Virus record (IMG/VR): IMGVR_UViG_3300030116_004499
Location: 1 to 32,586 of that record
Strand: one strand, 5' to 3'
Length of the DNA stretch: 32,586 bases
Source: a virus
This document shows, one piece after another, positions 14,635 to 31,216 of this stretch (positions are counted from its first letter, which is position 1; each line of letters opens with the position of its first letter). The notes below the pieces were generated by a model. It was not told the DNA's origin. It did not search any database and saw nothing but the letters and a program-made list of their open reading frames with translations. The position numbers and the translations under genes are program-made.

Positions 14635-14968
14635 GATCAGGAATAACTATGTTCATCTCTACAGCACTCCATCTAATTAAACGCTCTATAAATACTGAAA
14701 ATTCTTTTGTTGATAGCGTTTTAGTGCTATCTATGTTAAAATGATTTTTTATAGTGGAGTGCATTTCTTGTTCAGTATATCCCAGTTCCTCACCCAATAT
14801 ACCTACAATCTTCCAGTAATAGTTATTTTGCTGGGCAGAGCGTACACCAGTTTCTTTTAGTTCAATATAATACTCGCCACTTAATGTAGATATAACCTTA
14901 TCAAATTCATCTCGATTTAATAAGGTCATTTTACCATCTTTTATTTTACATGGAAATCGTAATTTCAT
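14612..14968 (-). CDS. NinB/Orf-like recombination protein candidate
   Basis: A 118-residue protein and the last gene of the minus-strand block. The motif ELKETGVRSAQQNNYYW (R-S-x-Q-Q-N-x-Y-W) at about 37-53 is like the RS-x-x-QN-x-x-W core of lambda NinB (Orf), a single-strand-DNA-binding recombination mediator. It is followed by GYTEQEMHSTIKNHF and an STKTLSTKEF turn with IVIPDP near the end, patterns seen in phage NinB-type proteins. It abuts the Mom-like gene by a one-base overlap. An HNH gene of NinG-like type lies in the same block, as in lambdoid nin regions. The family likeness is from motif memory only. Confidence 0.55.
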   Translation of the reverse strand: MKLRFPCKIKDGKMTLLNRDEFDKVISTLSGEYYIELKETGVRSAQQNNYYWKIVGILGEELGYTEQEMHSTIKNHFNIDSTKTLSTKEFSVFIERLIRWSAVEMNIVIPDPKTLLQS

Positions 14969-15666
14969 TAGAATAATTTTACTTGAGTTTTGGGTTTAAA
15001 GTTTGCTTTATAACGAGAATTAGAACCTTTAGGATATGGTAAGCAACGAAAATTAGCATGCTTTTTAAATAGTTTAATTTGTTTTTTACTACCTAATAAT
15101 TTTATATATCTATATTTTGGCTCTCGCCTTACCTGATATAAAGCATCTCCATATTTTTCTTTTAATTTATTAATCCTATCTTTTTCAAAGGCAAATTCAT
15201 CCATTAATGTTCTACTATGGATATGTTCTCGCCCTCTTAATTTCCAATCCATCTGTGTATGAGATTCTCCAGTATATATAAAGTTAGTAGATTGATATAT
15301 ATAACCATTGTGTCCAATAGATTGATCTGCATAACTTACAATAATAATAGGTTTTGGCAGTAATTTAAAAATTTGACCTAAAAAAAAACTATTAGCATTT
15401 TTATCTAAATTATCATTAGTGCATAATCTATTTAATTCATATACTAAGTGCATATATTTTTCACCACAAATAGATTTTTTCATTTGTAAAGGTACAGCAT
15501 TACCAAAAGTACAAACTCCTACAAGTATATCGTTATTAAATAATCCAAAACTATAAGAAATAGATGTTTTTCTTTTTAAATAATGCTTGTATAATAACCA
15601 TTCGTATGTTTCGTGTTTAGGAATAGACTCTACTGAATAACTATTTTTTATTGACAATTTGGACAT
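14968..15666 (-). CDS. Mom-like DNA modification protein (GNAT fold)
   Basis: A 232-residue protein resembling the phage Mu Mom family, which turns adenines in phage DNA into N6-carbamoylmethyl-adenine and so blocks many restriction enzymes. The visible core is VGVCTFGNAVP (49-59), YELNRLC (76-82) and SYADQSIGHNGYIYQSTNFI (111-130), the order and wording of the GNAT-like fold. The C-terminal half is basic and may bind DNA. It overlaps by 19 bases a small zinc-finger gene, the same arrangement as Mu com-mom. Whether the chemistry is identical cannot be read from sequence; a plain acetyltransferase is the alternative. Confidence 0.75.
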   Translation of the reverse strand: MSKLSIKNSYSVESIPKHETYEWLLYKHYLKRKTSISYSFGLFNNDILVGVCTFGNAVPLQMKKSICGEKYMHLVYELNRLCTNDNLDKNANSFFLGQIFKLLPKPIIIVSYADQSIGHNGYIYQSTNFIYTGESHTQMDWKLRGREHIHSRTLMDEFAFEKDRINKLKEKYGDALYQVRREPKYRYIKLLGSKKQIKLFKKHANFRCLPYPKGSNSRYKANFKPKTQVKLF

Positions 15667-20875: not shown

Positions 20876-21670
20876 TTATCTCCCATTTAAATATTTATGT
20901 TGAATGTTCTGAAACTTAGTAAATCCATTTTCAGATTTTTTTCTTAGTGACTTTATGCTGAGTAAAGTCTTGCCCCAAAACTTATCATGTACTGCCCAGC
21001 TTATAACATTCTTAATATCATCATACTCAAAACCATCTTTTTTAATTAAATCATAAAGTATATTTATACTGCCATTTACAATATCAAGGTTATCATTCCA
21101 ATTTTTTTCTATTATGTTTGGGTATCTCGATTCTTGTATATTATAAAAATCTTTTACAATTTTATACAAAGCATTTTTCTGCTTTCCATTGATCTGATTA
21201 TTTAGCTTAGTATCTTTAGAATTGCCATTGGTATATACTTTACTTATACTATTATTATTATATAATAATGATTGGGTATTTTGACTAGGCATATTGCCAT
21301 TAAATTGCAATCCACCCTCGCTATTATTATTACCCCCTACGTTATTTTGCACATAGGGTAATTTATAATTATTATTTAGGTATAGGGAATTTTGTATAGG
21401 GGTAATATATCTTTTCTTAAATTTTTTAGTGTTTTCTTCATACTCCATTACTATTTTTATAAACCCATATTTTCTCAAGCTAGATATACTTCTTGAGGCT
21501 GTGTCTTTGCTCATGTTAAACACCCTGCTAAAATAAGAATTATTCTTAACACAAACCCCATCTTTTTCTAAACAAGCCATAATCTCTGCAAAAATTAATT
21601 TGGCATTTGCTGTTAATTCAGTATGGTATCTCACATCACTAGGCATAACTGCATAATAACTACTTTGCAT
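20876..21670 (-). CDS. Replication initiator / helicase loader with winged helix
   Basis: A 264-residue protein with start 21670 behind AAAAGGAGAAGAAATA. The N-terminal ~95 residues form a winged-helix DNA-binding domain (LTANAKLIFAEIMACLEKDG, NNSYFSRVFNMSKDTASRSI). Then comes a long Asn-rich linker (NNVGGNNNSEGG and a run of NNN), and a C-terminal helical domain with VISWAVHDKFWGKTLLSIKS, the DnaD/phage-O-type helicase-loading pattern. It should bind an origin and recruit the primase-helicase encoded right after it. It overlaps the ribosome binding site of that gene. A strong hairpin precedes its leader. Confidence 0.75.
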   Translation of the reverse strand: MQSSYYAVMPSDVRYHTELTANAKLIFAEIMACLEKDGVCVKNNSYFSRVFNMSKDTASRSISSLRKYGFIKIVMEYEENTKKFKKRYITPIQNSLYLNNNYKLPYVQNNVGGNNNSEGGLQFNGNMPSQNTQSLLYNNNSISKVYTNGNSKDTKLNNQINGKQKNALYKIVKDFYNIQESRYPNIIEKNWNDNLDIVNGSINILYDLIKKDGFEYDDIKNVISWAVHDKFWGKTLLSIKSLRKKSENGFTKFQNIQHKYLNGR

Positions 21671-26481: not shown

Positions 26482-26498
26482 GGTGTAAATCTTACACC
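26482..26498 (-). promoter_or_regulatory. Operator-like palindrome on the early promoter
   Basis: GGTGTAA-ATC-TTACACC is a perfect 7-bp inverted repeat with a 3-base centre. It overlaps the -10 hexamer of the leftward promoter and abuts the start codon. It is distinct from the GTTAAG family but has the same size and centre, as expected of a second regulator's operator. Confidence 0.55.
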
Positions 26499-26516
26499 CT
26501 TTAGACTAATAATCAA
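26489..26516 (-). promoter_or_regulatory. Leftward early promoter
   Basis: On the minus strand TTGATT (26516-26511) and TAAGAT (26494-26489) are 16 bases apart. The start of transcription would fall at about 26481-26483, at the start codon, giving a leaderless message. Operator-like palindromes cover the -10 and lie upstream of the -35. Confidence 0.5.
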
Positions 26517-26520
26517 GTAA

Positions 26521-26543
26521 AAAAGTTAAGTTTCTTAACTTTT
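26521..26543 (-). promoter_or_regulatory. 17-bp palindrome, site F (extended arms)
   Basis: AAAAGTTAAG-TTT-CTTAACTTTT has perfect 10-bp arms. It lies 40-62 bases upstream of the first early gene, next to the -35 box, as an activator or repressor site would. It is the longest of the six copies. Confidence 0.6.
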
Positions 26544-26945
26544 ATTTACTCCTATATATATGAAAGAGAAAAAAACTCTAGTTTTTTTATTGAATTGATG
26601 CCAATTAATTCAATAGTCTATGTAATTATTTAGAATGCTGTTTTTTGGGGTTATTTAGTGCCTTAAATCAATTATTTTAAGTATTCATACATTTACATTA
26701 AAAAATCTTTTTATGGCTTTCTAGGGTACGTTTAAGGCTTTTACTCTCAGATAAACGCTCAAAAAGTGCGACCTAAATCCTCATACAACTAATCAAGGAC
26801 ATATACAAGTAAAACCTTTATAGGATAGTAATATTTAATTAGAGTGATTTGGCATAATGCAAGTTATTTCTTTTGTGATTGGATTTTAATTTACATACGC
26901 CCATCCACCGCACAAAAGCAAGTACAAAATAAAATTATTTTAATT
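26544..26945. other. Gene-free AT-rich spacer
   Basis: No credible ORF is seen in either direction. It holds AAAAAAACT-CT-AGTTTTTTT (26569-26588), an 8-bp inverted repeat ATTGAATT/AATTCAAT (26589-26614), and one inverted copy of the iteron element (CGCTCA at 26756-26761). These are weak or A/T-only structures and I do not call a terminator. Confidence 0.5.
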
Positions 26946-27026
26946 TGAGCGATATGAGCGTTTAATATATTATATATATGAGCGTTTTGAGCGTTAGAGG
27001 TGTAGGGCGGATGAGCGTTATGAGCG
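26946..27026 (+). repeat. Phased iteron array (3 pairs of TGAGCG)
   Basis: TGAGCG occurs at 26946, 26955, 26979, 26988, 27012 and 27021. Within each pair the spacing is 9 bases; pair-to-pair spacing is exactly 33 bases (26946, 26979, 27012). Only the first 15-17 bases of each 33-base unit are conserved, and an A/T-only stretch separates the first two pairs. It is a candidate small-terminase packaging site (pac/cos) or replication origin, lying 129 bases before the small terminase gene. Confidence 0.7.
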
Positions 27027-27117
27027 GTTGCGTTATTCCGTGTTCCCCATAAAATAAATAAAAACAAAGTCCTACAGGCTGTTCCGTAAAAAAAGTCAAA
27101 AGAAAGTCCATAAATCC

Positions 27118-27146
27118 TTGCACTAAAGTAATAAAGTCCGTATAAT
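27118..27146 (+). promoter_or_regulatory. Promoter of the small terminase gene
   Basis: TTGCAC (27118-27123) and a perfect TATAAT (27141-27146) are 17 bases apart. The start would fall at about 27152-27154, leaving no room for a ribosome binding site before ATG 27155, so the message is probably leaderless. Confidence 0.65.
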
Positions 27147-27154
27147 ATACCATA

Positions 27155-27793
27155 ATGAGTGTTGTCCTACCAGATAAATTAAAGCCGGCTATGGGTATTG
27201 CCATAGATATGTTAGTTACTGATCCAGAGGCTAAAATGAAGGATGTAGCTGAGAAATCAGGTGTTAATGTTTCTACTTTGCGGAGATGGATGAAAGATCC
27301 TGAGTTTGTAGAGGTGTTCTATCAGAAGTATATGGTTACTTTTGGTTCTAGGTTGCCAACTGTGCTTAATAGTATGGTTCGTGAGGCTGAAGCTGGTAAT
27401 GTGCAGGCTGGTAGGTTGGTTTTGGAACATTCAGGTAAACTTATCAAGCGAGTTGAGGTAAACAATCATCAAAGTCCTTTTGAGAAATTTCTTAATTCAC
27501 AAGCATCAGACATGGAAGAGGTTGAGGTTTTAGAAGCTGACTATGAAGATATTGAGGTTTTGCCCCAGCGACCTATTGTGCCAGAAAAACCCCCTACTAA
27601 AAAAGAGTTATCTACTCAACAAAAGAAAGCAGACAGAAAGAATGAAAAGCGTAGAAAGGCTAGGCGTTGGAGACAGAGAGCTGAAGCCGTAGGTGTTGCA
27701 AGACCAAATAAAGGCAGGCAAACCCCAGCACAAAGAAAAGCTTGGCAGGAACAAATAATAAAAAGAGAAAAAGCACTCAATATTGCTTCTTAA
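27155..27793 (+). CDS. terS: Terminase small subunit
   Basis: A 212-residue protein. The N-terminal domain has a helix-turn-helix (AKMKDVAEKSGVNVSTLRRW, about 26-45) of the small-terminase type, used to recognise packaging sites. Then comes a coiled helical segment and EAGNVQAGRLVLEHSGKLIK, an oligomerisation region. The C-terminal third is acidic then extremely basic (KADRKNEKRRKARRWRQRAE), typical for contact with the large subunit or DNA. The large subunit is on the opposite strand at 29903. The promoter directly upstream and the iteron array fit a pac site next to its gene. HTH family choice is by motif. Confidence 0.75.
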   Translation: MSVVLPDKLKPAMGIAIDMLVTDPEAKMKDVAEKSGVNVSTLRRWMKDPEFVEVFYQKYMVTFGSRLPTVLNSMVREAEAGNVQAGRLVLEHSGKLIKRVEVNNHQSPFEKFLNSQASDMEEVEVLEADYEDIEVLPQRPIVPEKPPTKKELSTQQKKADRKNEKRRKARRWRQRAEAVGVARPNKGRQTPAQRKAWQEQIIKREKALNIAS

Positions 27794-28625: not shown

Positions 28626-29906
28626 TTATGACTGTTCTGGTTGTTGATTTGATTCTAAGCCGTTTGTAGCCTTATTTTCTTCAATAATAACTTGTGCTTG
28701 CTCAACTGTAAGGTCTTTATTGTCACGAACCATTATTTTTGCTCTGGTAGTGAGATTGTTTTGAATGTCAAACTGATCTTTGAGTATCTGATCCTGTACT
28801 GTTTTAGGATAATCAATCTCTTCAAAATCAACTCCGAACTGTTCTGGCAGTTCAATTCCATTATACCCTGCTATTACACGCTCAACATTGTAAAAATCCT
28901 GTTCATACATTCTCCAGAGAGCAATATCATCGTAATAATCCTCTTTTCTCTCCATATCTTTAATCATTAGTGATATTCCACTAGGAACTTCACCCCCTGA
29001 CTCTGCCCATTGTATCCACAAGTGATTATTTGTAGCTACAAGCTCCATTTGAAACTTTATATTCTGTATTGCTTCTATAATGTTGCCTGATGGACTTGTA
29101 ATATTGTAAGCACCATCTTCCCCCATGTCTAGGATTGTATTAGAACCTGCTCTAAGCATACTTTGATCTGCTCTAAGTCCTGTAACCCACGGCTGACCAA
29201 ACATATTGAATCTCATGCCTAAATTCATTTCAGTAAGAGCTATATTTACCTGTTCATTGCAATTTATGATGTCAGAAGCACCTTCAACAAAAAAAGAGTC
29301 TATTTGATCTTCTCTATGAGTAAAAACAAAAGGAATAATGCCATAGGGATTAGGTATCTCACTCAACATCTTACCTTCTTCATCCATTAGTCCATATTTT
29401 TCACTATCCCAATATTCCCATTGCATATTATCCGTGTTAGATAGGTCGGCTGTATTATTAAGTAGCGGATATACAATAGAACTAGGTGTAAATGGATCAT
29501 CATCAAAGTAAACTTCAAAATAGTAAATAGGTCTATAGTCAAAATAGCCATCTTTCCAATGAACTCTGTTGGCAACAGTACCTAGAAGTCTAGTCATTCT
29601 TTCAGAGTGTTTCATACGAACATTTTTTGTTGGTATTAATTGCTCATAGCGTTCCGTAGAATCTCCTACGTTTCTTTTTGCTCCTAAACTGTAAATACGG
29701 CTTATTTTATTAATAAATTTTCTGGTAAAGTTGGTTACACTTGGTGGAATTTCCCTAAAAGCATCTCCGTTAAAGTAGTTGGTTATATACTGCTCTACTG
29801 AAACACCAGAATAGTAATCTAAGTGCTTTCTTATCTCATTTCTCCTAGCATGGGAAATCATTAGCTTTGTTTCTAGCAACTTGTCTTTTAACACTCTTTG
29901 AATCAT
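28626..29906 (-). CDS. Portal protein
   Basis: A 426-residue protein, the dodecameric DNA gate at the capsid vertex. It is placed directly after the large terminase with a 4-base overlap, the usual order. The N-terminal part has RNEIRKHLDYYSGVSVEQYI and a helical stem, the centre has NPYGIIPFVFTHREDQIDSF and INCNEQVNIALTEMNLGMRF (the portal stem/crown signature area), and the C-terminus is a helical acidic tail (IVRDNKDLTVEQAQVIIEEN in similar form). Length is typical. No frameshift or protease fusion is present. Confidence 0.8.
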   Translation of the reverse strand: MIQRVLKDKLLETKLMISHARRNEIRKHLDYYSGVSVEQYITNYFNGDAFREIPPSVTNFTRKFINKISRIYSLGAKRNVGDSTERYEQLIPTKNVRMKHSERMTRLLGTVANRVHWKDGYFDYRPIYYFEVYFDDDPFTPSSIVYPLLNNTADLSNTDNMQWEYWDSEKYGLMDEEGKMLSEIPNPYGIIPFVFTHREDQIDSFFVEGASDIINCNEQVNIALTEMNLGMRFNMFGQPWVTGLRADQSMLRAGSNTILDMGEDGAYNITSPSGNIIEAIQNIKFQMELVATNNHLWIQWAESGGEVPSGISLMIKDMERKEDYYDDIALWRMYEQDFYNVERVIAGYNGIELPEQFGVDFEEIDYPKTVQDQILKDQFDIQNNLTTRAKIMVRDNKDLTVEQAQVIIEENKATNGLESNQQPEQS

Positions 29907-31216
29907 CTTTGAATCCTCTTCATTTCGTTATTCCTCATAGGAAACCTGTTAATAATAAAATACCTAAAAGCATCATTTCCGTGGTCATGTGTACCATCTT
30001 TTAATGGTTCTTCCTTTATTGGTTTCCCATCTTCACTTTCAGGGTATCTGTACTCCTCAAAATCTTCTATCAAATCCTTGCATTTTCTATCTACATGAAC
30101 TCTTCTTACTCCATCTGCACTTTCAAAAAATCCTCTAGTATATGCAATGCTGGCAACAAGGTTTCTACTCATTCTGTCCCTTGCAGATATAATTCTAATA
30201 CCACTACGTCTAAAAATCTCCATATCCCCAGCACCACTTTGACCTTGAACATTGCTACCAGCAGGATCACCATAGTAAGACATAATGGGATAGCCTTTAG
30301 TTTTGATCATTTTAATTAAATCTTCTGTTTTAATGTTTTGTTTGTGTAGGATAGAGTCAAAAACACGAATATGCTCTAATTCTCCATCCCAATAAGTTTG
30401 CAAGAATAAAACTGCTGGCATTCTAAAGCCAAAGTCAATAGAACAATATGTAGGCAAATTTGGATCATATGGGAAATCGCCAGTATCCAAATCTCTGTTA
30501 AAATCCCAAACTTTACCCTCAAATACAGAAAACTCTGCTCCAAACTCTTGACCAAAAAGCTCTTTTGACATATTTCTCTTTCTTTCTATGATAGCAGGAT
30601 CACTCAATCCTAGTGGAAACTCATGCTCATTTATCCACGATGGCGATGTATGACTTTCCCACATTGGATCATCTGCACCTAGTTTAAACAAATCATATAT
30701 CCAGTTTCTGCCTTCTGGCGTTGTTATAAATATAACTTTACCTTTTCTACCTGCTACTGTTGGAGATAAATACATATCCCAAATCTTTTTATTCATTTTG
30801 GCAACCTCGTCAATTACTAAAAGGTCTAAACCCTCACCAACAAGACTTGATGGATTGTCTGCTGACATCCCTTCTACGATTGTACCCCATTTAAAACGAA
30901 TGTACATATCTTTTTCTGATGCCTTGTCTATGTCATCCGCATGACCAATAACCATACGTTGCCAAATTTCACGAAATATTAATCTAGCTTTTTTGTATGA
31001 CATTCCCACTACCCAAATTCTTTTGTTTGGCTGAGATGCTACATAAGTAGCTTCCATTGCACTTGCCCAAGTCTTACCAAATCTACGCCCACATACTACA
31101 ACTTGAAATCTGGCATCTTGTTTTGTAGGGTAATGCAAAGGGATTTGCCCACTATGAGGTTTGTAACCTAAGTAGTCAAACCATTTTTTCTTAAATTCGT
31201 AATTTTTTTCTTGCAT
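29903..31216 (-). CDS. terL: Terminase large subunit
   Basis: A 437-residue packaging motor. Walker A is GRRFGKT at 43-49, Walker B is DLLVIDE at 131-137 and the coupling motif is ITTP at 164-167. The C-terminal RNase-H-like nuclease has IDFG (Asp261), YYGDP (Asp317) and HDHGNDAFRYF (Asp411, Asp415), the expected three acidic clusters. It translocates DNA into the procapsid and cuts concatemers. The ATG 31216 is near a strong -10 on the minus strand. It is encoded opposite to the small subunit and capsid, which is unusual. Confidence 0.92.
   Translation of the reverse strand: MQEKNYEFKKKWFDYLGYKPHSGQIPLHYPTKQDARFQVVVCGRRFGKTWASAMEATYVASQPNKRIWVVGMSYKKARLIFREIWQRMVIGHADDIDKASEKDMYIRFKWGTIVEGMSADNPSSLVGEGLDLLVIDEVAKMNKKIWDMYLSPTVAGRKGKVIFITTPEGRNWIYDLFKLGADDPMWESHTSPSWINEHEFPLGLSDPAIIERKRNMSKELFGQEFGAEFSVFEGKVWDFNRDLDTGDFPYDPNLPTYCSIDFGFRMPAVLFLQTYWDGELEHIRVFDSILHKQNIKTEDLIKMIKTKGYPIMSYYGDPAGSNVQGQSGAGDMEIFRRSGIRIISARDRMSRNLVASIAYTRGFFESADGVRRVHVDRKCKDLIEDFEEYRYPESEDGKPIKEEPLKDGTHDHGNDAFRYFIINRFPMRNNEMKRIQR

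Follow-up and report, generated by a model that had tools for sequence, protein, structure and literature searches.

How the small terminase subunit finds viral DNA is well defined in few phages. Between the related phages lambda, 21 and N15, the R sites and the TerS recognition helix differ together, and N15 has an inverted extra site ~200 bp away (PMC4669245). The pac site of P1 comprises seven hexamers in pacA (PMC10028697). The SPP1 pac holds direct repeats that extend across promoters and the start of the TerS gene, and for SF6, binding of pac DNA by the TerS DNA-binding domain showed no sequence specificity (PMC4737164).

How does the locus studied here compare? The window, by which we mean all 32,586 nucleotides analysed, is an incomplete virus record with a phased repeat array upstream of terS that we liken to lambda cosB, P1 pac and SPP1 pac, membership in any of these being a candidate assignment. 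With the cosB sites of lambda, 21 and N15, it shares repeated sites at the TerS gene or upstream of it, mixed orientation, and sites and helix that change together; an inverted half-unit at some distance recalls the extra site of N15. Unlike lambda cosB, it is paired with a phBC6A51-type TerS, not with lambda Nu1, and is built of tandem 9-mer doublets in a 33-bp register, and the likeness lies in R-site-like repeats and the helix rather than in cosN, cosQ or cohesive ends. The TGATCA/G hexamers of P1, bound by PacA, resemble TGAGCG in form and likewise cluster at the small terminase gene, but they lie inside pacA, whereas the units of the window are phased doublets and TGAGCG lacks the Dam methylation site GATC. 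SPP1 and SF6 also have direct repeats at the small terminase gene. Their repeat sequences and architecture differ from ours, and site and helix co-vary in the group of the window whereas specificity was not found for the SF6 domain, a result that counts against the proposal that TerS reads the array. Iteron origins of phages and plasmids share the short direct repeats and helical phasing; here, however, the initiator is neither co-varying nor adjacent, and a conserved A/T-rich element was not found. Judged by the limited literature consulted, tandem 9-mer doublets in a 33-bp register, in a slot that holds other motifs elsewhere, appear to be a new variant.

The sequence-only reading had placed six TGAGCG copies at 26946, 26955, 26979, 26988, 27012 and 27021, with 9 bp within pairs and 33 bp between pairs, and a seventh, inverted copy at 26756-26761. 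All of these positions and spacings are exact, the seventh copy lying on the minus strand. TGAGCG occurs 11 times in the window against 3.05 expected, a count reached by none of 100 shuffles. Within the intergenic region 26482-27154, dinucleotide shuffles give at most three copies of any GC-rich hexamer (0/2,000 reach six), and three pairs of one hexamer at 9 bp arose in 3 of 5,000. The region was said to be gene-free, and indeed it contains no convincing gene; an antisense 80-aa ORF (26962-27204) overlaps the terS start. An Rfam search returned no known RNA element. The three units, stepping by exactly 33 bp and located 126-209 bp upstream of terS, are each an 18-letter doublet of a 9-mer in tandem, TGAGCGWTW-TGAGCGDTW (Table 1). 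The inverted half-unit is a good half, and its neighbour at 26762-26770 is degenerate, weakly resembling the second half.

Table 1. Array, terminase and replication features of the window.
Feature	Position	Strand	Sequence or product	Remark
Replication initiator	20876..21670	-	HTH_36, O-like	not co-varying with array
Inverted half-unit	26753..26761	-	TGAGCGTTT	~190 bp from array
Unit 1	26946..26963	+	TGAGCGATA TGAGCGTTT, two 9-mers in tandem	consensus over relatives
Unit 2	26979..26996	+	TGAGCGTTT TGAGCGTTA	consensus over relatives
TAGGGCGGA core	27003..27011	+		directly 5' of unit 3; conserved in array-less relatives too
Unit 3	27012..27029	+	TGAGCGTTA TGAGCGGTT	consensus over relatives
AAAGTC(C) repeats	27066..27139	+		at 27066, 27092, 27103, 27133
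terS promoter	27118..27146	+	TTGCAC-N17-TATAAT	read from sequence; conserved in relatives
terS	27155..27793	+	small terminase subunit, 212 aa	Pfam PF13022, PHROG 2538, fold match 2AO9
TerS recognition helix	27269..27295	+	VSTLRRWMK, codons 39-47	co-varies with array
terL	29903..31216	-	terminase large subunit	tree marker

Is the array a peculiarity of one record? Relatives, all related uncultured phages, were gathered through TerS and TerL, and a search for a paired element upstream of terS recovered 26 distinct arrays with 64 units in total that retain the 33-bp register. Their consensus is TGAGCG-W-T-W-TGAGCG-D-T-W, with T at position 8 in all 64 units and at position 17 in 63. The unit search required neither T, and their conservation indicates that each apparent pair consists of one 9-mer duplicated in tandem. 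The earlier statement that pairs but not spacers are conserved therefore holds for the 15-bp stretches between units, which vary, but not for the trinucleotide within the pair, which is constrained to W-T-W with an invariant T. TGCACG is a variant half-site able to stand in for TGAGCG. From one direct unit to the next the distance is 33 or 34 bp in most cases (single exceptions at 23, 46 and 55). Inverted units, at 31 and 35-36 bp from the units beside them, fall close to register, and in one group of relatives with four-unit arrays an additional unit is inserted at half register (17+16). The register thus survives the gain or loss of copies, insertions at half register and the presence of inverted units. 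Unit 3 is the commonest survivor in relatives with one unit. The inverted half-unit of the window is retained in three relatives (G001-G003), and a fourth (G026) has a CGTGCA pair in its place. Two further loci, L008 and L017, fit the array pattern yet have no gene for any protein of the window; we discarded them as apparent chance repeats.

Phasing was originally taken to set all pairs on one side of the DNA. The 33-bp step is exact, but it amounts to 3.14 turns and hence a drift of ~50 degrees per unit step, and the half-register units of four-unit arrays would face the opposite side.

Which protein would read such an array? TerS of the window belongs to the phBC6A51 (2AO9) type with an N-terminal HTH, as indicated by Pfam PF13022 (4.8e-10) and a PHROG terminase small subunit assignment. 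Its AlphaFold2 model has a mean pLDDT of 72, about 86 in the HTH, with a recognition helix predicted at residues 39-47; the PDB entry that Foldseek ranks first for this medium-confidence model is 2AO9, a phage protein (probability 1.00, E=0.005). On the strength of sequence comparisons, we favour with moderate confidence the reading that the array is a TerS-binding packaging and possibly autoregulatory site that would work like lambda cosB or P1 pac. The TerS HTH would read the 9-mer TGAGCGWTW, two tandem 9-mers would form one unit, and the 33-bp repeat would let a TerS oligomer engage several units at once and wrap or bend the DNA beside terS. If TerS is like 2AO9, that oligomer would be a ring. 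The array would thereby mark phage DNA for packaging, a pac or cosB-like function, and its position immediately upstream of terS suggests a possible second role in the expression of that gene. Adjacency to terS, a mark of pac- and cosB-type sites, is found in the window and in its relatives alike. The strict element is present in 14 of 31 whole records, always in the terS-upstream region and with a second site in none (the contig of one of these records, G028, stops before terS), and this restriction supports the TerS packaging reading.

Residues 49-105 of TerS are almost invariant among the relatives and the recognition helix is highly variable, and the array varies with that helix, as expected of a pac- or cosB-type site. 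A VST[L/I][R/Q]RW helix is present at every one of the 13 loci that have at least three direct units. Across 47 loci, helix similarity predicts unit number in a partial Mantel test (r=0.46, p=0.0005) once TerL, the DNA separating array from terS, and the terS codons on either side of the helix are taken into account; kinship among the loci is incompletely corrected by the permutation. Residues 27-48 have the highest mean informativeness about the array of the four parts of TerS compared, and residues 38, 39, 40 and 44 are among the 11 most informative columns. A TerL tree of 50 loci implies at least six changes of helix class and at least seven of the multi-unit array. Five independent contrasts fall on supported branches, array and helix moving in the same direction in 4.7 of them on average and in opposite directions never (p=0.0625, the smallest value possible with five). 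Since unit number goes with the DNA-reading helix of TerS across related viruses, packaging probably starts at the array.

Array and helix lie within 0.35 kb of each other. Could they simply travel together in one recombining block, with the array having no strong function? To a degree, the DNA from array to terS goes with the array as well, and part of the association between array and helix is explained by the two recombining jointly over so short a distance. As a full account, this is very improbable. It sits poorly with a register and a 9-mer consensus retained over 26 distinct arrays and with two mosaic relatives, L006 and L007. In these, the array and codons 28-48 are 84-87% and 81-84% identical to the window, and the 125 bp just upstream of terS follow the array. 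Their codons 1-27, in contrast, are 83-86% identical to array-poor phages versus 70-72% to the window, and their TerL is 93-97% identical to array-poor phages versus 91-92% to the window. The codons between array and helix thus break away from both, which weakens physical linkage as the sole cause without excluding it. Counting against the TerS reading are the proximity of array and helix, the number of contrasts, only five, and the lack of a one-to-one code from helix to motif. Some HNW-type helices, too, accompany TGAGCG units (L264, L231-L234, L246-L267), two different helices go with TACGCCA repeats, and one locus with a VST helix bearing N in place of R/Q (L362) has no array.

The sequence-only reading had left the choice between a TerS packaging site and a replication origin. 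The former has gained from helix co-variation and the mosaic relatives; the latter has lost ground. An origin would make the repeats iterons for the phage initiator, a replication initiation protein by PHROG, and the A/T-only stretch their unwinding element. Direct repeats, helical phasing and the adjoining A/T-only stretch all suit this proposal. The stretch is indeed present at 26961-26978, but it is restricted to close kin of the window (absent from G004, G021, G024, G030 and G031), and the initiator gene lies ~5 kb from the array. Moreover, the initiator DNA-binding domain is 88% identical between G002 and G006, of which G002 alone has the array, and 49% identical between G000 and G002, which have the same array; given the TerS helix, initiator and array correlate at r=-0.11. 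Neither mark of an iteron origin, co-variation with the initiator or a conserved adjacent A/T-rich unwinding element, was found. We consider an origin unlikely and disfavoured, and we reject the initiator as the array binder for its failure to co-vary. The initiator itself is 37-50% identical between relatives, the closest one excepted, versus 72-87% for the adjacent primase-helicase.

What occupies the slot when the array is missing? In many array-less relatives it holds strong sigma-70-like promoters, TTGAC-N17/18-TATATT or TAAATT, which point to a transcriptional role and against the packaging reading. The array could instead be an operator or upstream activating sequence for a host regulator or some other phage regulator, governing the leftward early promoter, rightward transcription into terS, or both. 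Its place within a divergent intergenic region fits, as do the lower sigma-70-like promoter scores in the slot at loci with TGAGCG units (p=0.011) and a GGGTAGGGCG core common to array-bearing loci and to array-less loci with a promoter. The TAGGGCGGA core, too, lies within a promoter spacer in array-less relatives. Such control gives no reason, however, to expect the array to vary with the TerS recognition helix, and phage genes co-occur with the array no more than phylogeny gives: we found no array-specific phage regulator gene among the relatives, the best correlated genes following phylogeny. By inspection, relatives also show no consistent -10 downstream of the units, and on this ground we rejected CII-like activator sites straddling a -35. 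Overall, we regard transcriptional control as the less likely function, though one with appreciable probability.

Between array and terS, the terS promoter and AAAGTCC repeats are conserved with or without the array. These repeats overlap the promoter and are another candidate target of TerS or of a regulator. In the clade of the window the -10 box lies very near the start codon (27141-27155), and mRNA from this promoter would be nearly leaderless.

In other lineages the 7-mers TACGCCA, ATGGTAG and CATTGAC are over-represented in the terS-upstream slot. Carriers of ATGGTAG, TACGCCA and CATTGAC include L346, L348 and L349 (about -302 to -219 from terS); L263, L269, L272, L291 and L277; and L296. 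We tentatively propose that the slot is a swappable specificity cassette, in which motif arrays or a strong promoter alternate to match changes in the TerS helix, TerS being both packaging initiator and transcriptional regulator. It is likewise possible, though speculative, that phased arrays of TGAGCGWTW, TACGCCA, ATGGTAG and CATTGAC all serve as cassette motifs within one phage family. If the cassette is real, lineages would vary the way their DNA is recognised for packaging, rather as temperate phages vary their immunity. The pairing of a regular array with a nine-residue helix in closely related uncultured phages provides ready-made swap pairs for studying TerS-site specificity in vitro with no need of a culture, and opens a route to packaging-site prediction from metagenomes.

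Near-complete relatives measure 36-38 kb, with permuted contig starts. Contig ends cluster near the array, but the tail-fibre region has a similar cluster, and bridged scaffold gaps account for some of the breaks here; the hotspot probably reflects assembly breaks in variable DNA and does not serve as evidence of genome termini. No close cultured relative was found: TerS and portal are without match in phage records, and TerL, primase and capsid are about 30% identical to entries there. An 86% identical TerS is encoded on a 3.3-kb low-coverage contig in a Flavobacterium MAG (L380, JALRGT010000068.1), a weak clue to host or habitat and too little to name a host.

Two other intergenic elements stand out. 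A palindrome, AAAAGTTAAG..CTTAACTTTT, at 26521-26543 precedes the leftward early operon, where relatives have different palindromes, and the stretch 26690-26750 (CATACATTTACATTAAAAAATCTTTTTATGGCTTT...TTTACTCTC) is conserved among relatives amid variable intergenic DNA. Elsewhere, the window encodes a Mom-family DNA modification gene (14968-15666; Pfam PF25680, 2.5e-37) that is shared by few relatives (G007 and G023).
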